From Chromera velia (taxonomy: Eukaryota > Sar > Chromeraceae), in assembly GCA_018398765.1 (NCBI GenBank), contig JAHBMJ010000226.1:33071-53545 (forward strand): a DNA stretch of 20,475 nucleotides, read 5' to 3'. A program made the translations under genes and the position numbers. The notes under the pieces were generated by a model that made no database searches, had not been told where the DNA came from, and saw only the letters and a program-made list of their open reading frames with translations. How positions within the stretch are numbered: the first letter of the stretch is position 1; each line of letters opens with the position of its first letter. This document shows positions 401 through 19,566 of this stretch, piece after piece.

Positions 401-663
401 CTGCGGTCAGTGAGTCAAAAAAAACAAGAGAGAGCAGCAGGCAGACAGACAGGAAGGAAGGGGCAGACATAAACACAAAATCAAAAAAGTCCAAAGGAGG
501 AACACCTCTGCAGAGCACGGGTGATTCCCGTCCTTCGGCGGCAGTTTTCTCCTCTCCAAGAGGGGAGGGGGGTTTCGAAAATGCCCTACGATGAACGAAT
601 GGGCAGGGGACCCCTGGCTTCACAATATGCCTTCCTCGCTAGCTTCCTCACTGACTGACTGGC

Positions 664-1012
664 TCACTGACCGAGGGCGTCTCCTCTATCCTCCCTTCCT
701 CCCCCCTCTTTGTCCTTGTCTTTCGACGAGCTCCCACTGCGCTCCTTGGAACCTCCAAACACGAGCAGCTTGTCGTGGAGGACAGCTGCGGAGTGGCCCC
801 GGACGTTCACCGTGCCTTCGTAGAGAGGTCGGGACCACTTCTTCTTGGAAAGCTCCAGAATGTAGAGGTCAGACGTCTCCAGAAATGTCTGCACGCATCC
901 ATCGACAGTGTGTGTGATGCACACCAACTTGATGAAGTGTACTCAGATGGACTTTGACTAGTCGAGACGAACATGTAGGCATGATTCTGTTGGAAAAGAT
1001 TGTGTAGTACCA

Positions 1013-1048
<36 letters not shown>

Positions 1049-4000
1049 ACGCACACAGACACAGAGAGAGGGGGGNGGGGGGGGGGGCGGGAGAGAAATA
1101 CAGAGAGAGGAGACTTCCAAATCTGTTTGCCTTCCCGACTGCTGCTTCCTCTGAGATATCTGGCTACAGGCACAGATAGAAAAAAGAAGGCTCGCTCTTT
1201 TGTGTCTGCACCCAGAACTGACTGCGGCTGGGGGGTGGAGGTAGAAAAGCAAAGCAGTCGTTGAAGAGACAACAAAAAAAGAAAGTAAGTCTCCATGACA
1301 CCCCTATGCACACCAAACGACACTGACGGAAGGGGAGTGGGACACCCTCCCCTTCCTGTCCTCTGACTGACCAGTCCTGCGAAGACGAACAGCCGGTCCC
1401 CCACAAGGGAGAGCGAGTGGAACAACCGACCCATCGGGGGTGTGTGGGAGATCTCAGGCGTGCTCCTGCAAACCAACCAACCAAGGAACAAACAACAGCA
1501 GAGAAGGGAAAAAGATAGATAGACCAGACAGAAGGAAAACGCGCACAACTATCAAGAGAACCCAACAAGTAGAAAACTCTCTTTCGAATCTTGTTTGTTC
1601 ATTGCGGTCAACCTGTCTTGTCTCAATCCACATTTGTTTAGCAAAAAATGGCTTGATCTCCGAGACCGTACATGCTATGCCAACCCACACAACCAGCCAC
1701 AGAACAAAGACTGTGTGATTCTCTCCTTGCCTCCCTCCCTTTCTCTTTCTCTCTCTTTCAGTAACCAACGAACCACTCCATGGTGTCACAGTCCAAGGCA
1801 TACAGCTTGTTGTCCCTGTTGGGCCCTCCGAACATCAAAACTTGGTTGGAGGCAGACACGAACTCGCACTTGTGCCCGTACCTGCAGCAGGCCATGCCAT
1901 TTAAGTTCACCCGCCTCTCGCTTAAGACATCGACAGAGAGAGAAAGAAAGCAAGAAAAAAAAGAAAGAAAGACCGTCAATCCGATTTGCCAGCATGCAAG
2001 AAGAGCAGGCAGTCTCCAAAATAGACCTGGCAACATAAAAGCAAAATGGAGACTCGTTGCCCGATCCGCACGTGCCTCAGTCTCTCTTGTTCACGTGTCG
2101 CATTGAATGATCGGCAGATCCATTTTAAAGGGATGGATGGACCAGATGAATAACTTTGCCGGCCGCCACAAACAAATAACTGTTCATTACAGCACGGTGC
2201 ACAACGAAACAAAACACCGTCCCTGTGTGCACACACACACATAAACAAATACCCTCTGTGCACACACACAAAAATATACAGACAGTCGAATACATACATA
2301 CAGACAGACAGACAGACACCCTTCCTGTACAAACAAAAACAAATATTTGTATACAGACCGTCGAACAACTTGAAAGAATCAAAGAAGGAGGATATGTACA
2401 AAATCGTCTCACTCACTCACTTTGCTCCCGGAAGTGTTCCCTTCTGTTCCGTCTTGCTCCAGGAAGACGAAGAGGAGTCGAGCAGGTCAAGGGGAAGCAC
2501 CCAAAGTTCATCTGAAATCTGCAAAGCGAGAGAAGACACGTAAACAGGCGGGCAAGAGAGGAGTGAAAACGAAAGAATGAGAAGGTGAAACAGGGCGGAA
2601 TCACAAAAGAAACGACATGGTGAGAGGGAGGGAGGGAGCGACAGCCAGCGAGAAAGAGAGAGAGAGAGAGACCAAGGCGGAGACGGACAGCTGCAGACGA
2701 GACGAGCCCATGCGTAGAAGAAATGACTAAAGTTCCCCTCGTTCCTTTCTTCTTCACTTCTTTCACTCACCTCAGTGTAATTTGAGTCAGTCACTCCGCC
2801 GTGCACGATCAATTTGTCCTTCGCAACTGCACAACGAACAAGAAAGAGGGACGGGCACAAACAGGCAGGGAGGCCGACAGAATAATCAAACCATCGAGAG
2901 CCAGAATATCCTTGTCTCATACAATGCGTCTAACCAGAGTTCACGACCCCTCTAAGGAGGATTGACAGAAAGGCAGAAAGAAAGAAAAGCCAAAACGCGA
3001 AGGAAGGCTCAGACAGTTGGCCAGACTACATGAAAACAGCCACAGGCTCTCCTTTTTCAGAGAAAGGCAAAGACGTTGTTCTTGCGCCACGTAAAAATGC
3101 ACGAAGGTGTATAGCCAGGCACCAATTACGAAGGAAGCGTCCAAGCATGCGACCCACCACAAGCGCTATGGAACCCCCTGGCTGTCGGTCCCTCTCCCTC
3201 CTCAATCTCGCAACGTTCCCATTGGAGCTTCGACACCTGCATGCACAACATCACATCTCATCACAGTGAGCGTGCGTTCGTCAACAAGAGGGGGGCCAGA
3301 AGGCGTGCGTGCGTCAACAACAGGGTTCAGAGGGAGGGTGGGTCAATGTTTGGACAGCAGACTGGCTGGCTGGCTGGCTGAGCCCTGCAGGCCATGCTAA
3401 CAAAATTCGACCTTGTCACTCACATCCACACACACACGTGGGCTGAGACGATGAAGACCCAAAGAGAGAGCAGACAGACGTGGAGCGTTCAGACAAAGGG
3501 AAAGAAGGATTGATTCAAAGAGAGAGAAAGAAAGAGCATGTCATATCTGTCTGTCTCAAGCAAGCAAGCTGACGTGAAGAACGTAGACCTCAGCAGAGGG
3601 CGCTCCCTGATGGGCCCACGGTTTCGCCCTCGAGCCCATCACGGGGGGGGCTGGGAAGGACGCGGAGAGCTGGTCGTCCAATGCGATGTCCCCAGAGGAG
3701 TCGCTGGCCATTCCGCCGAACAGGACCAACTTGTCGTCCCTCCACACATTCAGAGAATGGCCAAAACGGGCGGAGGGTTTAGAGAACCCCCCCGTCGTCT
3801 GCTCCTTCCAGGAAGTCGTCTCTGCGGAAGAAGAAGGAAAGGCACGGAGAAGAGAACGCGAAGGAGAGAAAAAGGAGTGGATTGGGGCTGGAGGGAGAGG
3901 CGGGGGGAGGGTGCGCACAAGGAATGGATGGAAGTGGCACTGCAGCATCCATCGGGTTGATCCATCCGTATTCTTTCTGGTGTATTTATTGTTCATGCAT

Positions 4001-4837
4001 GTTCGTGCTGCTGCTGCGTCTTTTCTTTTCGTCCCTAGCTGTTTCCCTTTCTGCCTGTCGATCATGTCCTCATTTTGTGAGTGATGCAGGGAACAGCCAA
4101 GGCAGGCAGCTGCCCCGCTTCTCTCTTCATCGTCGCCATGCTCAAAGTGTGATGTAACCAGTTGCAGGGAAGTCGAGGCAGCCAGCACGCTGCAAAATGC
4201 GAATGGCATTTGAAAGCTTGTGTTATATGTGTGGATATGTAGTTGTTCTCTGCCTGACTGACCGATCTGCAGCATGTTCAGATCTGCATATGCCTGGCGC
4301 TCGTCGGCACCCCCGTGGAGGTACAGTCGAGTTCCGACGGTGGCAATCTGCGTGCACACCACACACACACGTCAGGGAGGTTACACAACGCACGCCAGAA
4401 GATTCCTAATTGCAGAGTTTGGCGCGCATCCGAAATCGAAGACTCACACAAATGAGACATGAGAATGAGTGAATGCCAGAGAGAGACACGCACCCATGTA
4501 GCATGGCATTTAGGACGGGGAGGGTGATAGTGACATGAGCCTGGACGTTGTGGAGTAGAGGGACTTCCGCATCTTCGCCGAAGCTGATCTTGGGGTGTTA
4601 GTGAAGGGGGACGGGCGGCTTTCAAAAGAGGCGTTGAAAGAAAGCACCCGAAGCACAGTCACCAGGCACAAAGTCGGAGCCTACCCAGGACCCTGCACAG
4701 GCCTTCCAGGACACTATGATGAAAAACCGGGGGGCCCTTCCTCCTCACCTGGGCTGCAACTCTTCCCGCCGGGGCGTCTCCGTGCTGTTTGAGGTCGCAC
4801 ACGGAGAGGACCAGATTACGGACTCCCTGTTTGTCGG
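664..4837 (-). CDS. Kelch-repeat beta-propeller protein, multi-exon, 5' end unresolved
   Basis: Exons in coding order: 4837-4749, 4588-4490, 4347-4263, 3821-3574, 3236-3158, 2826-2771, 2518-2421, 1881-1770, 1465-1372, 888-664 (TGA at 666-664). All have GT donors and AG acceptors and join in phase except 1770/1465, where exon 8 ends in phase 0 or 1 but exon 9 needs phase 2. About six kelch blades can be read. The strands carrying the glycines are TRLYLHGGADE, DDKLVLFGG, KDKLIVHGG, SNQVLMFGG, GDRLFVFAG and HDKLLVFGG; most are preceded by a P-x-(A)R-x-G/F-H turn and followed by strands such as AEVYVLHVSKLQW, ELWVLPLD, KLYALDCDTMEW and DLYILELSKKKW. This is the family pattern of a kelch propeller, a protein-binding scaffold found as a substrate adaptor or cytoskeletal partner. 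No BTB, F-box or catalytic domain is visible. The first two exons encode a non-kelch segment (LVLSVCDLK, then HVTITLPVLNAML) that I do not recognise; the first begins in phase 1, so at least one further 5' exon is missing. Kelch identity is secure; partners and cell location are unknown. Confidence 0.8.
1012..1090. repeat. (CA)n microsatellite followed by a G-run with an ambiguous base
   Basis: An alternating CA/CG tract at about 1012-1062 runs through a short GA block into a G-run with one undetermined base at 1076. It lies in the intron between the kelch exons at 1465-1372 and 888-664. The N suggests the G homopolymer was not resolved by sequencing. Confidence 0.9.
2630..2672. repeat. (GGGA)/(GA)n simple repeat in a kelch intron
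   Basis: GAGAGGGAGGGAGGGA followed by a short gap and a GA dinucleotide run. It lies between the kelch exons at 2826-2771 and 2518-2421. On the coding strand it is a CT-rich tract. Confidence 0.7.
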
Positions 4838-5891: not shown

Positions 5892-6941
5892 ATGTTCTTG
5901 ACCGCTTCCCTTTTATCTCTTTCGACTGCGACTCTATGTGTCGCCTTCTGCCCAGGAGGCCAGTGTGGGTTCGCCCTTTCACGCCCTCACTCATCCTTCC
6001 TGGCCTCCGTGTCTCCGCCTTCATACAGACGAAGAAGCAGGGGGGCTTTTGCCCTTTCGGCAGAAGATCGCTCAGGGGCTGCAGAGCTTTTGCAGACAGA
6101 AGAAGATGTGTCTGTTAAAGAGCCGGCAGGCAGCAGAAAGACTCGCGAGGGAGACGGCCCCTCTCAGACGGAGACGGGGGAGACGGGAAGGGAGAAAGCT
6201 GGACTGCTGGAGACAAGCACTGAAGAGTCAAGAGTAACGCAAAAGAGAAGTGCAGGCAAGCAGAGGGCAACTGACGACGCCCTGCTGGATGCATTCCAGG
6301 GCATCGAGGTGAAGCCGCCGGAGGAGGAGGAGAGAGTAGTTGTTGGTGCAGAGGGGGAGTGGGCTTCTATGTATGAAGAAGAAGCTCGCGAGTTGTTGGC
6401 TTCTTCATTGTCTTTTGATGGAAAGGGGCAGCAAGCGAAAAGTAGCGGATTTGAGGCTGAGGATTACTGGGGAGATCTGGATGAAGAGACCGACGCCGAG
6501 TCCGTCACTGACAGATGGACACGTCTACTGACCAAACGGGTGATTGCGAAAAGGAAGGGTAAACGAATAGATGAGAGGGACACTTACTGGTCAGGAGTTT
6601 TTGCAACATTGTTACAGAAGGCAGAGCAGGAGAGCTTCGTCCCTGCTGTCACGGGAGGACAGGGGGAGGGGGAGGGAGGGGTTCGGGGCGTCTCGTTTTT
6701 TCAGTTTTTGGAACTCCCGCCGGTGCAGTCGTTGATCGAGTCGAAACGTCAGTCAGTCAGTCAGTCAGTCAGTCAGTTAGTCAGTCCACTCAGTCAGTCA
6801 GTCAGTCAGTCAGTCAGTCAGTCAGTCAGTCAGTCAGTCAGTCAGTCAGTCAGTCAGTCCAGTCTGTCAGTCTGTCAGTCTGTCAGTCTGTCAGTCTGTC
6901 AGTCTGTGAGTCTGTCAGTCTGTCAGTCTGTCAGTCTGTCA

Positions 6942-6977
<36 letters not shown>

Positions 6978-8230
6978 GACTGTCAGTCAGTCAGTCAGTC
7001 GGTCAGTCAGTCAGTCAGGGAGTCAGTGAGCCAGTCGGTCAGTCAATCTTGGAGGCAGACAGACAGACAGGCACGCAGACCGTCCCTTTCTGCGTTTGTG
7101 CGTTCGTCTGTCCGTTCATCTAGATTTCAGGAAGAGACAAAGAAAGCAGCGATGCTCGAGAGACGAAGAGGGAGGGAGCCAGCCTTGATTCAGACTTCCT
7201 TCTTTCTCTCCAGTGTGGATGGAGAGCCGTTGAGTTTGTTGGTGTGATTCTCGATTCTCTCTGTCGCTTGAGAAACTGTCATGCCTGCCTATGCCGAACA
7301 AGGAGGGCCCCAGGCAGAAAGGAATGAATGCACCAGGCAGAGAAGCCAAGAGGAGCCTCGATCCTCTCTCTTGTAGCTGTCTGTCACCACGAGTATCAAG
7401 ATTATTTCTTCCTGTCTTTGAAGCACCTCTTCTTTTACCAAAAGATCAGACATGACGTGTGTTTGTCTCTTCGTCCGTCCCTTCCTGCAGTCACGGATGA
7501 GGTGGAGCTCTGGAGTTTGTGGGAGCGGGCGGTTGTGTCGGAAGAGGATCTGCTGGCGTTTTCTGTTGACAGGGGTGTGGGGGGTGGACAGAGACCGGAG
7601 AAAGCTGAGGAGGAGGCAGACAGCGACGATGACTACGAGTGGGTGGAAGTTGACGAAGATGATGAGGACGAAGAGGCAGAGAAGGAGAGGGAAGAGGAGG
7701 AAACCGAGGAGGAAGAGGATATCGATGACTATGTGCCGCCTCCGTGCATCAGTACTCTGCCTCAATTCGTATCTGTTGGGTTCTTGTTTGATGACTTGGC
7801 CAGGGCACTAGGGAGTGCTTCAGATTTGGTGGCCGAAACAGAGGAGGGAAAGAAGAGAGGAGGGGGAAAGGATGAAGAGTCTACAGGCGGACTGATCAAA
7901 GTGTTGGTCGAAAGACTTGAGCAGAGCAAGAGGGAGGAAGAAGAGTCCCGTTACATTCGGTGGATTCCGTTCCTGGGTGGGAAAAGAAGGGCAGGGCTGA
8001 CTTCTGAGAAGGCGAAAGTGAGCGCGATGTTCGACGCAAGCATCAAGAGGATCCAGGCGGACAGAACCAAGGAAGGAGGAGGTACGTACAGAGAGAGAGA
8101 AAGAGAGAGAGGGGAGGGAAGTCAGAGAGAAGGGTGGGATTCCAACAAAGTCCATTTAGGGTTGTCTCTGTTGCTGTTGCTGTTGTTTCCGTGGTCGAGT
8201 CGGACTGATGCAATTTTTCTTTTCGTTGTG

Positions 8231-8261
<31 letters not shown>

Positions 8262-9606
8262 CATATGCCTGCAGGAGAGGCTGGGGTGGCGATGCTGCTG
8301 GCTGCAGAGTTGACAGAAAAAAAGATGAAGGCTGAGCAGGCAAACCAGAGAATCAGCAAGGAGATGATTCTCAAAGGTTCGTTGAATCAATCGTTGAGGT
8401 GTTCTTGTAGTCTTTCGTTCGTCTGTCACTGCTTTGTTGATTTGTCTTCGTTGATATTTGATGTCTCTCTCACTTGGACTCCCTTTGCGGGCGTCGGAAG
8501 GAAGAAAGGATGTTGCCTCTGCATGTCTTTAAGTTGCCTCTTGTCTGATTGTGTCTCTCTCTGCGTTCTGCTGTCTCTTTTCCATTTCGTAGCAATTCCT
8601 TGTACCTACTTTCTTTTTTAGACACTGATAAATCTTCACTCCTGTTTGTGAACCTTGGTTTGTTGTTTTTGATGATGCAGACATCCCACCGAAGACAGCA
8701 TTGAACTCAATGCTGAAACAGGTGTCCGACTCCGGTCTGGTCTGCCCTCCGTCGGCAGAAGAAGTTCTGAACGGCCTCTGCAAGGACCTCGTGAGGCAAC
8801 CAGACAACCTCATTTATAGAGTCAGTCAGTCAGTGAGTCAGACTGACATGGACAGACACAGCACGAATGGGACTGTTTGCGTCTTTCGGGCTGAAGAACT
8901 CAATAAATTGCGTCGTTTGGTGTTTGGTTGAGTCCGGTTCCTAATTGTACGCATACGCTTTCGATCAGTTGGAGACTTTCAAACAGACTTCTTGTTTCTG
9001 TGGGTCGTCTGGAATCCTTCATACGAAAGGGAGTTGGTGGGTTTTTCTTTCGGCTTTTGTGGTCTCTTCTCTTCTCGTTTCTTCTCTTCTCTTCTGAGCA
9101 CTGCGACACTCTTTTTGAACTGGTTGGGCGGATCTCTTTCTCTCCATTCTGCTCGTTGAACCCCATTTTGTTCCCCTCTCGCCGGCGTTGTGTCAATCTG
9201 GATCCATCTCCTCTTTTCTTTTGGAGGCCCCCCCTGTTATTTTTCTTCTCTTGCCATCTCTTTTCTTTTGGAGGCCCCCCCTGTTATTTTTCTTTTGGAG
9301 GCCCCCCCTGTTATTTTTCTTTTGGAGGCCCCCCCTGTTATTTTTCTTCTCCTCTTTTCTTTTGGAGGCCCCCCCTCTTATTTTTCTTCTCTTGCCAATC
9401 TTTCCAGTGCATGCATGGCAGTGGAAGGTTTTTTTTTTGTTGTGTCATTCTTCAACTCAAGACTGTACTCTCCCTTTGTGAGTGTTCCCTTACGACCTTT
9501 GCAGGGAAAATCGAAAATGGTCGAGGCTCTTGCGGGCAACTGGACGATGGTTTTCACGTCTTCCGAGAATGCGCGGTTCCATAAAGCGGTCACAGGTCTG
9601 CCTGCC

Positions 9607-9638
<32 letters not shown>

Positions 9639-12226
9639 GGCTGTCTTTCTTGAGTGTACGTCTTTCTCTTTCATGACACTGCTGTCAGGAGGACTCAAGC
9701 TTGTTCCTGGAGGAAAATGTAAGGAGGCGAGAAATCAGCCGTTTCTTTCCTTTCTTGCGGACCGTCTTTCACCCAGTGGATCTCCACTGAGACTCTGTGC
9801 CCCATTGAGATTCCTCAGGTGACTTGCTACCAAGATTCTCTCTCTCCCCTGCGTGTGTGTACTGCAAAAAGAAAAAATCGAGCAAAGTGAAATCAACATG
9901 CGTTTGGAATCTCTGCCCCTTTCCTTCCTGTGTCTGCTTTGACTTTCTTTTTTTTTCTGTGCAGGTCTTGTGAAGAACATACCAACCTCACGCTTCAGAA
10001 ATCTTCGCCTGGAACTGAAATCACTGTCAGTCACAGATCCGGGAGCTAGTAAGCTATCTCCTGCCTTTTTTTTCTATCTTTCCCCCTACTGGCCACATAC
10101 TGGATGGAAAAAGGGCGCGACGCACACAGAGAGGAAGGTAAAGAGGGGAGTAGCTGTATGCCCTCCTAGAGAGAGGTCCGGTTGCCCGGAATCAAAGCGT
10201 GTTTTCTTTCGGGCAGCTCTTCCTGTTCTGCCGGTTTGCCTGGCCCTTGTTTTTCATCTCTCCCTGTCTCCGGAGGCATCTGTTCGCCCTCTCTTTCCCT
10301 CTGCCTGAGCGTGGACGACGCATGTGATGGGAGTGTGTGATGGGGGTGCAGATATGACGGGCAGCTCTTGGAGATGTGTTTTCATGAGGACCTTCGCAGT
10401 GTGATCGCCGAGATCCATGGGACGTGGGACATCGTTCTCTGTCAGTTTGTCTGCCTGCCTGCATGAGTGGCAGGCAAATGATCTATCTGAGTGGGAAAGA
10501 GACAAATGCTTATTCATTTGCCTGTCTGTAATGATCGATCTGTTCTCTCTCTTTGTGTTTGCTTGTCCCTCCAGCATCAGTCCAGTCGATAGATGCTGGG
10601 AGGTGCTCTGCAGCTGCAGGGTCTTCTTTCTGCACATTTCATGCAGCCCCCTTTCTTTCACTTGATCGGGATGTCCCTGTCAGCTCTCAAAGTTTGTTCT
10701 TCCTCGCAGTGGTGATTGCATGCCTGTCTTCCCTTCCTTCCATCTCGTGTCAGCTCGCTCTTCGACTCATTCTTTGTTCTTTTATGATCTCTGATCACGT
10801 AAAAGACCGGGCCCTCCTAGGTGGTTGCCGTTGAGAGTCTGGTTTTTTTTGTCTACGCTTGTCTGTCTGAACCTGCGTGCAGCGACGTCGTCACAGAACA
10901 CGAACGCCGTCATGCAGTCAGTGGCTTTCAATCTTCCCCCTCCCCTTTTTCTTTGGGGAAGCCGAGAAGGGGAAAAGGATGTTGTGCGTGCTCTTTCCTC
11001 AGGCACTGGTTTCGATTGTTGTTTTTGAGCAACTGCTTCCTCATCACTCTTTCTGATACTACTTCTGATCCGTCCGTGTCGTATTTCTGCTTTTTTGTCT
11101 CTTTGCCTGCCGACTTTCTTTTCTTTTCGTTGAAATCGCGAGGTACTCGCTTCCCTCCCGTCTCCGCTCCTCGATCCTCATTCCTCACTTTAGTCACTCA
11201 CTGCTTTCTGTGTTTTCTGTGTGCGTGTCAGCCAGTTCGCAGTTCTGAATGAACATTGGTACGGATCATGAGAGTGAATTCTAACGGTGCTAATGCGTAA
11301 TCAGGGGGGTGATGCGAATAAGTTCTGTGACCCATTTGTCATACATTCCTTCCTCGCTGTCTGTCCGTCCGTCTGTCTGCAGACTCAGACTCAACATGAA
11401 GAAGTGTAAATACGGTTTTGTGGACACCCCGGTGAAATATTGGTCCACCCTCGCCGGGTGGAGAATTCTGGAGGTACGTCCGTCAGGTCTTTCTGCTTCT
11501 TCTCTTTCTCTGGAGCGTTTAGAGGGAGGGACTAGATTTGTGATCTTTCTTCGGGACTCTCTTCGGAATTGTTGGGTATGCGAGGGAGGGACATCAGGGG
11601 ACTTACTTGAGTGGTCCGATTGGCTCTTCACTCTGGCTGGATTCTTCAATCTGGACTCTCTCTGAATCTGATTTGGTTCTCCACTTCCCTTTGCAACTCT
11701 TCTCCGACTCTCAAAACCGCGAAAGAAATCGGGCTGCAGCGTCTTATGGCTTTTTGAGTCTTTCTTTCCCCTTCTCCACCGCCCTGATCATCTGCCTCTT
11801 TCTGTTTGCGTCAAAAAGTGTGCATTCTCGGAAAAGAGCAACAGCTTTCATCAAGGGTTGCCTGCAAGTCTGATCGATCTGATCGAGTCTTCCTTCCACG
11901 TTCTTTCTTTTTTTTGTTTGTGCGGCTTTGCTTGTATGAATGCGCGCATGCAGTTTTTGTACGTCGATCCGGAGCTTCTCGCCCTAAGCTTCCTTTCTGA
12001 GGACTCAATGGTTGTCTTCAAAAAGATCAAGGAAAAGGACCAGCAGCGGCCTCTAGGGGCAGCTGGAGAAGATGCAAAAGACCAGTTGGTGGGGTTCTTC
12101 AGGGAACTCATGCCAGAGACGACTCGAGGAGGGTCGTCGAGTCCTTCTCCCATGCAGGGGGAGACTGGAGGAAGGGAACTTGAAAGAAGTCTTGAAGAAC
12201 AGTTTCCACCTCAACCACAACGGTAG
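5892..12226 (+). CDS. Plastid-targeted protein with C-terminal PAP/fibrillin (plastoglobulin-like) domain, 10 exons, 763 aa
   Basis: Exons: 5892-6747, 7491-8081, 8275-8376, 8681-8820, 9505-9595, 9689-9718, 9965-10048, 10883-10916, 11383-11473, 11954-12226 (TAG). Every intron is GT-AG and every junction keeps phase, including exons of 30 and 34 bp, giving 2292 coding bases. Residues 1-18 (MFLTASLLSLSTATLCVA) are a signal peptide. Cleavage before Phe19, then a Ser/Arg-rich stretch ending near AFALSAED, is the two-part leader expected for a plastid of secondary origin. Residues about 60-510 are charged, with a Glu/Asp-rich block at 322-366 and no domain I recognise. From about 520 the sequence fits the PAP/fibrillin family: EALAGNWTMVFTSS at 570-583, a TGGLKLVPGGK turn, a central RLELKSLSV strand, then WRILEFLYVDPELL...MVVFKKI where the family has W-x-E-x-x-Y-L-D-x-D-L-R...FVL. 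Known fibrillins bind lipids in plastoglobules and thylakoids; that role is inferred here. The usual Arg after Y-x-D-x-x-L is replaced (LALSFL), so this is a divergent member. The family call is less certain than the gene structure. Confidence 0.8.
6748..7060 (+). repeat. Large GTCA/GTCT tetranucleotide microsatellite filling the start of fibrillin intron 1
   Basis: The repeat begins exactly at the intron 1 donor after exon base 6747. It runs as GTCA units, then alternating GTCA/GTCT, then pure GTCT, then GTCA again, over about 310 bp. On this strand neither GTCA nor GTCT arrays make a stop codon in any frame. The exon 1 frame therefore stays open to 7246 and would add a Ser-Val-Ser-Gln/Cys repeat if the intron were retained. 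I treat it as intron because a strong acceptor at 7490 restores the frame in exact phase. Confidence 0.9.
8229..8256 (+). repeat. (CT)n tract in fibrillin intron 2, near the acceptor
   Basis: A CT dinucleotide run ending about 18 bp before the acceptor at 8274 (TGCCTGCAG). It doubles as the polypyrimidine tract of this intron. Confidence 0.8.
8821..8842 (+). repeat. Short GTCA repeat starting at the fibrillin intron 4 donor
   Basis: GTCAGTCAGTCAGTGAGTCAG begins directly after exon 4 (last base 8820). It is the same unit as the much longer array at intron 1 and lies in the same position relative to the exon. Confidence 0.8.
9213..9395 (+). repeat. Minisatellite, core unit 27 bp, five copies, in fibrillin intron 4
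   Basis: Five near-identical units of the form TTTTCTTTTGGAGGCCCC(C)n-TGTTATTTTTCTT. The GGAGG cores start at 9223, 9270, 9297, 9324 and 9364, so the spacings are 47, 27, 27 and 40 bp. The longer intervals carry an extra CTCTTGCC- or CTCCTC-type insert. The last copy has CTCTTA for CTGTTA. The array is intronic: exon 4 ends at 8820 and exon 5 starts at 9505. The open frames across it are read-through with no stop in a pyrimidine-rich repeat. Confidence 0.9.
9597..9637 (+). repeat. (GTCT)n repeat at the start of fibrillin intron 5
   Basis: GTCTGCCTGCCT followed by about seven GTCT units. It begins one base inside the intron 5 donor (9596-9597). Confidence 0.8.
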
Positions 12227-12811: not shown

Positions 12812-14610
12812 ATGTTACCGGGGCTACAGCTAGCGCTACAGCCTCATCATCATCAGGTGAAGGCTCGGGTAGATGGGGTAATAGAATGCTTTTCAGAAGG
12901 CGGAGGAGTAAAACAAGGCGATCCTCTCTCTTCTCTCTTCTTTCTTCTTTTCATCAACAATCTGCATAAGTCTGTCAGCTCCGATAATGAAAACAGGAAT
13001 CAAAGCTTGGCTGGGGGTGCAGATAGAGAGACTCTTGTCAGACTGTCGAAAGCATCGGATACGCTGACGACCTTGTTCTGTTTGCTCACAGTGCTTCAGA
13101 CTTACAGAAACGTCTGTCCTATCTGGAGGACTATTATAAGGAGCACGGTCTGAAGGTGAATTTGAAAAAGACAAAAGTCATGCGTCTTTCCTCCCCCCAC
13201 CCTGACCTTGTGCCCCAGACCCCTTTTCTTTATGAAGGCAGACGAGTGGAAGAGGTGAGTAAATACAAGTATTTGGGCAACTGGGTTTTTGAGGGAGAGG
13301 ACCTTAGCAAGACAGTCGAAGCCCGCATTGAGGCGGCAGACAAGGCTTTGGGGGCTGTGTTTGGCACTCTCTCTTCTCTGGGCTTTATTTCTCCCTTTTC
13401 TAAAATTACCTTGTTCAAGGCCCTATGGCTGCCAGTCGCGCTGTATGGACTGGAAACGATCCCACTGAGAAAGACAGATGTTGCCTGCCTCAATGCTTTA
13501 CAGTTATGTTTTGTTGGATGTTGTTTTAGTCTCTCTTATCACTCTTTGAATTTGTTTCACCTTCTCTTTTCTCTCTCTCTCTTGAACCATTCAGTTCTTT
13601 GCTTGGTAAGTTGATTGGGGGCTTTGTCCAATGCATCAAATTGATTGACCGTGCTCTATCCCGGGCAGTGTAGAATGAGTGCTTGGCTGGCTTATATGAA
13701 CCCTTTGTTAAGACAGTAAAATGGCTGGCCGTTCCATTAGATTGCTCCTTTTTGTGGCCTCCATTGCCAAGCACGGTCGCGGATAAGTTTAAAAGGAAAG
13801 GCAAGGGTAGAAAGAAAAGGGTGGCAAGAAACTTAAAGATTGTAGAGGGTGCCTGGCTGTCCGACTGGTTAAAAGAGGAAACTAGAAACGTTAGAGACAG
13901 AGACAGAATTTTCCCCCACCTTGCAAATCTCTCTCCTTTCTAATCAGAGAATCCAACCAGACAGCGTTTGGCCATGCACCTTCTAAGTAAAAGGAAATGG
14001 TGTCCGAGAAGTGAAATGATAGAATACAGTGTTGAACCTCTGCCAAAGAGTCTGTTACAGTCCTCCGCAGGCTTCCGTATGCTTTTTAGGGCTCTCACAG
14101 GGGGGGATATAGATAGAACCCACTGGCAACCGGAATGGCTGTACAATAAGTGTTTGTCCCCCTCGTGTATGATCAAAGATGAGGTTCATGTCCTGACGGA
14201 ATGTAAAGACACAGAAAGGGAACGAAACAGACTGAAAATACTCTACGAAATTGCAATATAGAAAGCGCCCATTGACATAAGAATACAGATTGCACAACGC
14301 GTTGCAGGTGCAACCGGGAGGGGCACTTCTGATAATGAGAAGAAAATGAAGGAAATGGTGTTGCTATTGTGCATAATCCTGCCGAGAAGCGGTTCTAAAG
14401 CGCTAGCCGAGTGTTTCAGGAAGGTTCATTATGTCGATCATGCAAGTTGAGGCGAATCGATCCGATTGGCATGCAGGCTTCCTCATCCCCCCCCCCTATG
14501 AATATATGCTCTGGGTTGTCCTCAAAGCCTTGTTAGTGGCTTAGGATTTGGCGTCGCTAAATCTAGGATTTAACCCTCAATCATCATCATCATCATCATT
14601 ATTAATCGGT
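12812..14610 (+). mobile_element. 5'-truncated non-LTR (LINE-type) retrotransposon remnant with (CAT)n tail
   Basis: The recognisable part starts in the middle of the reverse transcriptase domain and runs in order through YADD, the thumb/connection region and a C-terminal Cys-Cys-His-Cys motif to a CAT trinucleotide tail at about 14580-14600. There are no long terminal repeats, no integrase and no endonuclease part. 5' truncation with a simple-repeat 3' tail is what target-primed reverse transcription leaves. The exact 5' junction is not visible (somewhere near 12800-12845), and I found no clear target-site duplication. Confidence 0.65.
12845..14261 (+). pseudogene. Broken reverse transcriptase reading frame of the LINE-type element
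   Basis: The family's palm motif GGVKQGDPLSSLFFLLFINN is read at about 12900-12963. After a frame change near 12985 a short stretch (TGIKAWLGVQIERLLSDC) is read in a second frame. Another change near 13048 leads into GYADDLVLFAHSASDLQ in a third frame, with catalytic YADD at 13060-13071. That frame continues through LKVNLKKTKVM, SKYKYLGNWVF and ALYGLETIPLRKTD to a stop at 13614. Two further open pieces in other frames (13683-13943 and 13968-14261) follow. The last ends in C-x4-C-x6-H-x4-C, the zinc-knuckle-like motif typical of the C-terminus of such elements. At least three frame breaks make it non-functional. Despite this, the YADD active site and long flanking stretches are intact, so the decay looks modest. 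Confidence 0.75.
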
Positions 14611-17801: not shown

Positions 17802-19566
17802 TTACCCAAAACCACACTTTGTGGGCGGAGGTACAGAGGCGGTTGTGGGTTCCGATGTGCCCTCCTCTTCCTCAGGAGGTGGGGGGGCCGGGAGTACCCA
17901 GAATGTTTTCAGTTTTCCCTTTCCCTTTGCTTCGACTGGATTGGGTCTCTCGAGGAAGTGCGCGTTCAGATCCGAGTCCTGTCTTACAGCCACCTCCCGA
18001 AAGGACTCCGACACATGAATGTGCCCAGGCTCTCCCGTCTGCTCCATGCGGGCTGCTGTGTTGACGGTATCCCCGAAGAAGCAGAACCGAGGGCATTTCA
18101 GTCCAACAACCCCCGTGTAGGCGGGGCCAGAATTCAATCCGATTCGAACTCTGAGAGTGGCCCCTGTGGGCATCTTGATCGTCCTCGCGGTACGGCGTAC
18201 GAGGCGGGCAAATTTGAGCAGCCGTTTGGCGTGATCGGTCTGTCCCTCCAGATGTCCACAGGCAGCCATGTAGGCATCTCCTATCGTCTCCACCTGCAGA
18301 GTTAAAGTCAGTAGAAAAAGGGGAGCAGCAGGTAGAATTACGAAGCAGACGACCGAATGAGAGAGCCGCTGAGCACTTGTAGTCCGAAGAAACCCGAATT
18401 AGCAAGAGAGAGATGAAATGCTTCTCTCTGAGGCCAGCCAGAGTCCCAGCTAGACACAGAACGACGTTTGCAGACACAGACGGAAGTGTGCGGCCATTCC
18501 GGACCTGAACTCAAAAAGAAAAAGAGGAGGGGAGAGTCGGAAAAAGAGAAACAAAGAGAGACGGGGAGGGGAGGGGAGGGGAGGGGAGAAAGACTTATGG
18601 AAAAGACCGATCGACCGACTGATTGACCAACTGACTGACCTTGAAGACTTGACAGTGGTCAGAGAGGACATCCATTGTACAGAAGAGTTTGTTCAGGAAC
18701 ACCACCACTTCCCGGGTCGGGACAGAGGCCGACATGAGCGTAAACCCGCAGACGTCCGAAAAAAAAAGAGACACCTGTAGTGTAGTCGCACACACAGGAA
18801 GACAGAAAAGGGTGTGCAGAGGAGAAGAACACAAGCTCAGAGGTGGAAGGACAGATTTCCGAAACAAACCATTCGGAATCCGGTACAAACCGTCAAGCCG
18901 CCGTTCAAGCAGACAAGTCGGGTTTTGCCCCCCCGCTGTGAAATGACAAATTGACGGTTAGAAGAATATTGAACAAAAACAGTCACGATCTATGACCCCT
19001 CACAGATGCAGAGAGAGCCAAGCAAAGCCGGTGAGGTCATTTAATTCAAATGTTAATAAGTGCGACTGCATGATCGCATCTCTCTGTCCCATGCACATTC
19101 GAATGCACCTGCCTACCTCCGGGTGGCTCTCTGCGATTTGTGCTTCTCCCATCTGGAGCCTGTGTGCGACTTGCTCAGGCAGGATCGACGATAACAGCTG
19201 CCCCTGACGAGTAGCCTCTGCCAGCAGTTTCACCTGCATGCATGTATGCGTGCAGTTGCATTTCAATGCAAGGTCACTGAATGCATCGGCAAATATCCTT
19301 GCGGGAAGAGAAGAGAGGGAAAAAGGGGGCGAAAAACGAGGGTGTGCATGAGGACAAGCAGCCCCGCAGACACGCTCGATGACATGAAAACAGACGAAGG
19401 CATTGCAAAAAAATGCAGGAAGGCTCAGCAGAGAGATCCGGAGAAAACAAGAGAAGGGAGATCAGGTGGACGCAAACCGACAGGATCTGTGAGTAGAAAG
19501 AAAACAAGAGGAAGAAAAACAAAGCAAGAAAGACGCACAGGTGGAAAAAATGCACAAACAGACAAA

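Follow-up and report, generated by a model that had tools for sequence, protein, structure and literature searches.

Tetranucleotide arrays that begin at splice donors in Chromera velia, with the donor as their probable seed

Tandem GTCA repeats in the genome of Chromera velia often start at the exon edge, in register with the splice donor. Donors are extended into such repeats more often than other sites of the same form, the arrays are anchored at the donor, they copy the bases of the donor at which they start, and the U1 and U6 RNAs of this genome are canonical. The explanation I consider probable, if well short of certain, is that donors of the form GTNNGT, kept in place by selection, seed tetranucleotide slippage into the intron, which would be tolerated since splicing at the first unit gives the same mRNA. 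The initial annotation of the 20,475 nucleotides analysed here (the window) had noticed repeats at its donors; this observation holds and extends genome-wide, while the interpretation offered with it was partly right.

Reading frames in the window yielded models for three genes, each with several exons. Two lie on the minus strand and encode proteins matching PF24681 (2.8e-52, Pfam; kelch domains present) and PF00211 (3.5e-47, Pfam), hereafter kelch and cyclase. The third, on the plus strand, has ten exons in one open frame; it had been called a fibrillin, a label that does not stand, as the whole protein found no Pfam family at E <= 0.001 and its C-terminal 204 residues found no PAP_fibrillin up to E = 10 within the HMMER filters. 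Across the 21 donors of these frame-consistent models (author's count), C occupied +3 in 11 and the hexamer was GTCAGT in nine, bearing out the claim that many donors here are GTCAGT with C at +3, where GTAAGT or GTGAGT would be usual. A 22nd donor, GTGTGG at 17817, was left out of the count, as it is not certain that the gene extends that far. The donor sites named earlier read as described on both strands, and the features are as follows.

6748..7045, plus strand: intron 1 donor with its GTCA array (TRF: period 4, 74 copies, 84% matches)
8821..8841, plus strand: intron 4 donor GTCAGTCAGTCAGTGAGTCAG, starting GTCAGTCAGTCAGTGAG (placed by frame)
9596..9650, plus strand: intron 5 donor with a GTCT-type array, GTCTGCCTGCCTGTCTG (TRF and frame)
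10026..10036, plus strand: intron 6 donor GTCAGTCACAG (frame)
10441..10446, plus strand: intron 7 donor GTCAGT (frame)
10917..10922, plus strand: intron 8 donor GTCAGT without an array, reading GTCAGTGG (frame)
4254..4262, minus strand: kelch donor GTCAGTCAG (exon 4263-4347 joins 3574-3821 in frame)
2408..2420, minus strand: kelch donor GTGAGTGAGTGAG (frame model)
1363..1371, minus strand: kelch donor GTCAGTCAG (frame model)
647..671, minus strand: kelch donor GTCAGTGAGCCAGTCAGTCAGTGAG, starting GTCAGTGAG (frame model; the next exon lies outside the window)
18619..18639, minus strand: cyclase donor GTCAGTCAGTTGGTCAATCAG, starting GTCAGTCAGTTGG (residue-level homology)
18640..18774, minus strand: cyclase exon ending 3' at the array donor (its start, CTACAG/GTG, read by eye)

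The array at 6748 had been put at about 310 bp, and measures 298 bp by TRF; splicing at its first unit joins exon 5892-6747 to exon 7491-8081 in frame. At 8821 both the first unit and a GTGAGT 12 bases further on are in frame, and in intron 6 the frame is kept by only one of two candidates, 10026, the other being GTAAGC at 10049, 23 bases on. The kelch junction at 1371 (residue 284 of the protein) falls within a Kelch_4 match spanning residues 264-303. The GTCAGT donors at 10026 and 10441 are additional to the examples given in the initial annotation.

The strongest single case of an array donor is the cyclase donor at 18639, where the predicted junction VFK/VETIGDAYM aligns ungapped to natriuretic peptide receptor 1 (E 7.7e-45). 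This places the junction at the first unit: a shift by one unit breaks the frame, and a shift by three inserts residues into a conserved stretch. In all, 39 junctions were inspected by eye in five genes (starch enzyme, GlyRS, ARF, EXS and cyclase), of which the 15 that aligned without gaps were kept and 24 excluded; kelch junctions were left out of this set because of gaps in the alignment near the one inspected. The models used correspond to real genes: glycyl-tRNA synthetase at 1.6e-168, the starch branching enzyme with glycosyltransferase at 3.5e-86 and 2.8e-17, ARF at 1.5e-70, and the EXS/XPR1 protein at 4.7e-39 (Pfam) and 7.7e-14 (PDB), while four of the eight predicted proteins searched found no match in Pfam. 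The predicted branching-enzyme gene (locus L052, 1-10000, plus strand) has a branching-enzyme-like part and a glycosyltransferase part and may be two genes; homology does not fix where the parts join (residue 713).

The base at +3 of the 15 homology-fixed junctions was C in six, G in seven, and A and T in one each. Full period-4 continuation was present at four of them (GTCAGTCAG twice, GTCGGTCGG and GTGAGTGAG, the cyclase junction included). In a fifth, GTAGGCAGG, the bases at +7 to +9 match those at +3 to +5, while +6 breaks the repeat. All four fully extended junctions splice at the first unit, so the first unit is the one used at these sites. Introns in the window models and at the homology-fixed junctions have a GT donor and an AG acceptor, which the gene finder itself assumes.

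These junctions also bear on the proposal that the arrays are coding, with the true donor at their 3' end. Pure GTCA repeats are free of stop codons and read Val-Ser-Gln-Ser in every frame, and the frame of exon 1 stays open through the array at 6748 to about 7244. Against this, slippage by four bases would break the frame, the 3' edges of arrays show little register preference (see below), and ungapped homology assigns two junctions, that of the cyclase and that at residue 1000 of L052, to the first unit. I regard coding arrays as highly improbable.

Donors were then considered at larger scale with a hidden Markov gene finder built for this analysis, for which about 250 kb served as training sequence. 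A first version, whose splice motifs were GT and AG alone, yielded 19 introns and was set aside; the yield was 67 with a generic motif and 171 after self-training. The self-trained run placed C at +3 in 83 of its 171 introns, followed by G (52), A (23) and T (13), and its most frequent hexamer was GTCAGT (43). Two further decodes, A and B, kept the coding and acceptor models of that run and used a flat donor model, with no base preference at +3, +4 and +6, together with one shared non-coding model. In loci not chosen for arrays, GTCAGT was again the commonest hexamer in these flat-donor decodes (15/91 and 19/107 introns), with C at +3 in 36/91 and 43/107 introns, or 32/75 and 37/85 in the random loci alone, without the window.

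Counts that need no gene model agree with this picture. MAG/GTCAGT occurs 6672 times in the genome, 2.5 times the ~2714 expected by chance with equal bases, and its reversed control 3227 times; locally, five of ten MAGGTCAGT matches lie at predicted donors. Donors in this genome thus depart from a purine at +3, C being the commonest +3 base in the decodes and roughly level with G at the homology-fixed junctions, so that C is securely a common +3 base, and less securely the commonest. The claim that the spliceosome accepts GTCAGT fits the decodes and the MAG/GTCAGT counts, and C at +3 does appear to be accepted as a common donor base, on sequence evidence. As a separate observation, MAG/GTAAGT, the donor of many eukaryotes and fully complementary to U1, was counted 1533 times genome-wide, 0.57 of equal-base chance (reversed control 5764), and its single local match was not at a predicted donor (0/1).

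A comparison of the 5' end of U1 with GTCAGT had been suggested, and a U1 matched to this motif is refuted. U1 begins canonically with AAACTTACCTG, complementary to GTRAGT, in one copy above the cut-off and in one shorter copy, a third being a fragment that lacks the 5' end. Seven copies of U6 were found, and the four that were read carry ACAGAGA. C at +3 is therefore not explained by a matching change in U1.

Anchoring of the arrays was assayed across 177.8 Mb in 4040 contigs. The arrays are tandem runs of short units, as in microsatellites, both by TRF and by the 12,059 genome-wide matches of the (GTCA)5 20-mer. Edges were counted without gene models, a clean edge being that of a GTCA run of at least 13 bases with all three flanking bases off-period. 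Of 3383 clean 5' edges, 1787 (53%, where ~25% is expected) began GTCAG, followed by AGTCA (777), CAGTC (505) and TCAGT (314). The 2170 clean 3' edges were near-uniform (G 649, T 587, C 453, A 481); tested against equal quarters, the 5' register gave a chi-square of 1525 and the 3' register one of 46, which is also beyond chance, but small. Part of the AGTCA class is expected, because some donors have A as the last exon base (e.g. 8821). Immediately before the array, the first 100 listed edges of register G carried G in 69 cases, T in 16 and C in 15, A being excluded by the pattern. The -2 base of the first 100 listed array edges was T in 46, A in 35 and G in 19, with C excluded by the pattern, and is thus richer in T than at predicted donors generally (n=171), which have A at -2 in 92 and T in 28.

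Coding potential supports the placement of these edges at exon ends. For 42 local arrays, the 90 bases upstream scored as coding in 28 and the 90 downstream in five, compared with 207 of 720 random 90-mers (upstream excess p = 1e-6 vs random and 4e-7 vs downstream). This sample comprised 34 arrays with the first run in register G, many of them fetched by a register-G pattern, and eight in other registers; five of the 42 lie in the window or in random loci used to train the coding model, and two (L035 and L038) are near-identical copies. Read antisense, upstream stretches also scored as coding in 23/42 and downstream ones in 3/42, so the test shows coding-like DNA rather than strand.

The 99% identity of the L035 and L038 upstream flanks is what would be expected if a single mobile element with an array in it had been copied to many sites and so produced the register lock. 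That origin is, however, extremely unlikely: in a comparison that covered roughly 250 kb of loci, not the whole genome, 38 of the 42 flanks had no similar stretch in other loci, and of the remaining four, two reached no more than 74-81% identity over 47-88 bases.

The initial annotation had described the repeats as anchored at the exon boundary and not scattered in the introns. The anchoring stands, given the 5' register and the coding sequence upstream, while "not scattered" was too strong, as 47% of clean 5' edges genome-wide fall outside the GTCAGT register. Where GTCA runs reached nine bases or more, they coincided with predicted donors in 5/18 cases in random loci and 4/12 in the window, which also holds other tetranucleotide arrays remote from donors. 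GTGA arrays showed no lock to GTGAGT, with 513 clean edges in that register vs 1946 in a comparison pattern that mixes two other registers with a mis-set flank and is thus not a clean register count.

A reading in which the genome is generally rich in tetranucleotide repeats, and GTCA arrays merely stop where purifying selection on the exon starts, draws on these observations: GTGA arrays are unlocked, 13 of the 18 random-locus GTCA runs are away from predicted donors, and the window has many other tetranucleotide arrays. The same holds for the lag-4 self-match, which in the flat-donor decodes was 0.365-0.382 in introns, 0.328-0.340 between genes and 0.277-0.281 in exons. Since period-4 similarity is raised across all non-coding DNA, part of the array signal is general. 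Nevertheless, I consider general richness quite unlikely as the explanation, as it predicts neither the GTCAGT register lock with a near-uniform 3' register nor the copying of donor bases described below. Self-match at lags 4, 8 and 12 was raised in introns and intergenic DNA and not in exons, and the genome seems unusually rich in tetranucleotide repeats. An apparent period-4 excess of introns over intergenic DNA (0.391 vs 0.305) shrank once the decoder could not learn it and is not claimed.

Copying of the donor's own bases was evaluated in the self-trained run at loci not chosen for arrays, where positions +7 to +9 equalled +3 to +5 in 20 of 129 introns; 5000 permutations gave a mean of 6.9 and a maximum of 15. 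The random loci alone gave 13/104 (mean 5.0; 2 of 5000 permutations as high), and the flat-donor decodes 12/75 (mean 4.6; 4/5000) and 10/85 (mean 4.1; 16/5000). After donors, lag-4 self-match stood at 0.46 for offsets 6 to 10 and at 0.36-0.40 further in.

Donors were also extended more often than other GTNNGT edges. In the first flat-donor decode, edge-type GTNNGT was extended at 7/22 donors vs 8/118 intron and 15/317 intergenic sites (7/22 vs 23/435, p = 2e-4), and in the second at 6/28 donors vs 9/138 and 17/286 sites (6/28 vs 26/424, p = 0.01). Extension was low as well at two kinds of site that stood outside these tests, those antisense within introns (5/59, 3/52) and those in exons (2/72, 2/78; 2/79, 2/83). 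A decode with only GT and +5 G in its donor model used the first unit at 13 of 15 array donors, which is weak evidence, as this decode favours the first unit on tied scores and missed the array donors at 8821 and 18639.

The birth of microsatellites from short seeds is a known concept, and the mechanism I propose is a special case of it. Introns of this genome are ordinary GT-AG introns served by canonical U1 and U6. Their donor motif is relaxed at +3 and +4 to roughly AG/GTSRGT; about 40-49% of donors have C at +3, and no hexamer is commoner than GTCAGT. With GT at +1, +2 and again at +5, +6, a GTNNGT donor already makes up one and a half tetranucleotide units. Selection would hold this seed at the exon edge, and therefore replication slippage there would recur, copying the donor's own unit into the intron: GTCA most often, and also GTGA, GTCG and GTCT. 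Expansion would be tolerated because the first unit stays beside the exon and gives the same mRNA at any array length, and retention of the first unit would leave the array with a sharp 5' end in register and a 3' end that decays. I infer slippage as the cause, and general use of the first unit and neutrality of the arrays are likewise presumed from the sequence. As in other seeded births, slippage would lengthen a motif of about one and a half units; unlike an ordinary seed, this one would be a functional site under selection, and would set both the register and one end of the array.

That microsatellites are born from the donor, one of two options in the initial annotation, is thus the favoured reading: the own-base copying in 20/129 introns and the excess at donors over other edges speak for it, and the unlocked GTGA arrays against it. 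The other option, that redundant donors within arrays are used, is possible. If slippage were the whole cause, all GTNNGT donors should be extended equally, yet donors with C or A at +3 seem to be extended more than those with G or T. In the trained decode extension affected 11/39 donors with +3 C, 3/10 with A, 2/31 with G and 0/7 with T; control decodes gave 9/22 and 9/29 for C, 2/19 and 2/19 for G, and 2/7 and 2/9 for A. Extended donors were also less often preceded by AG than others (5/19 vs 25/55 in decode A, 6/21 vs 29/71 in decode B), which, together with the -2 tally at array edges, suggests that arrays may accompany weaker exon ends. With numbers this small, these biases are a hint that points to function or to relaxed constraint.

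Functional redundancy would account for them as follows: C at +3 mispairs with U1, and copies spaced by four bases raise U1 occupancy, so that the array is a selected landing pad with several sites. The greater extension of +3 C than of +3 G donors and the scarcity of AG before extended donors are in its favour. Yet the counts are small, +3 A donors, which do pair with U1, are extended about equally, the same association would arise if selection were relaxed on a donor that is redundant to begin with, and the four fully extended homology-fixed junctions use the first unit. Selected redundancy is therefore unlikely, though not negligibly so. A wider form, in which the spliceosome has shifted to +3 C, avoids MAG/GTAAGT and offsets weak pairing by donor arrays that serve as multi-U1 landing pads, is rather unlikely; if such landing pads were real, the 5' splice site would include a microsatellite as a functioning component. 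Under the favoured reading, the GTNNGT donor would itself be the repeat seed, and splice sites could thus give birth to microsatellites and set their register. Such a process would link splice donors with microsatellite birth, topics usually studied separately, and would be relevant to any genome with GTNNGT donors. The common +3 C beside a canonical U1 suggests in addition that the purine rule at +3 can relax without a matching change in U1.

A close parallel is that of human alternative donors set in tandem at a distance of four bases (GYNNGY), such as the SFRS16 exon 15 extension /GTCA/, where gtcagt is one of two donors (PMC2423196). In both systems overlapping donors lie four bases apart, and exon ends here do carry two or more GY sites at that spacing. 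The human cases have two donors per exon with alternative splicing seen (PMC2423196), whereas here arrays stand at the exon edge, with ~74 imperfect units at 6748, and the first unit is the presumed donor. Introns and introner elements of Amoebophrya are mostly not GT-AG, partly have direct repeats of 3-5 nt and inverted repeats, and come with no detected U1 (PMC7789003). The likeness lies in alveolate introns with unusual boundaries and repeats at them; the introns described here differ in being GT-AG, with a canonical U1 and period-4 arrays. Dinoflagellates use GC/GA donors (PMC7789003), likewise a lineage-specific shift of the donor motif, with the change at +2, and here at +3 with GT kept. 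Among the literature matches listed, seen partly as excerpts and covering few subscription papers, nothing joined donor sites with anchored tetranucleotide arrays, and the available text, including the main text of the chromerid genome paper (PMC4501334), held no account of the donor motif of this lineage. No paper was found that combines "proto-microsatellite" with "splice site". Seeding of repeats by splice sites at the exact exon edge is little described.

Predicted acceptors of the self-trained run showed a TGCNTGCAG-like motif with a four-base spacing of its own. Finally, the plus strand of the window at 12850-14450 reads like a decayed non-LTR reverse transcriptase, judging by a stretch near 12900.
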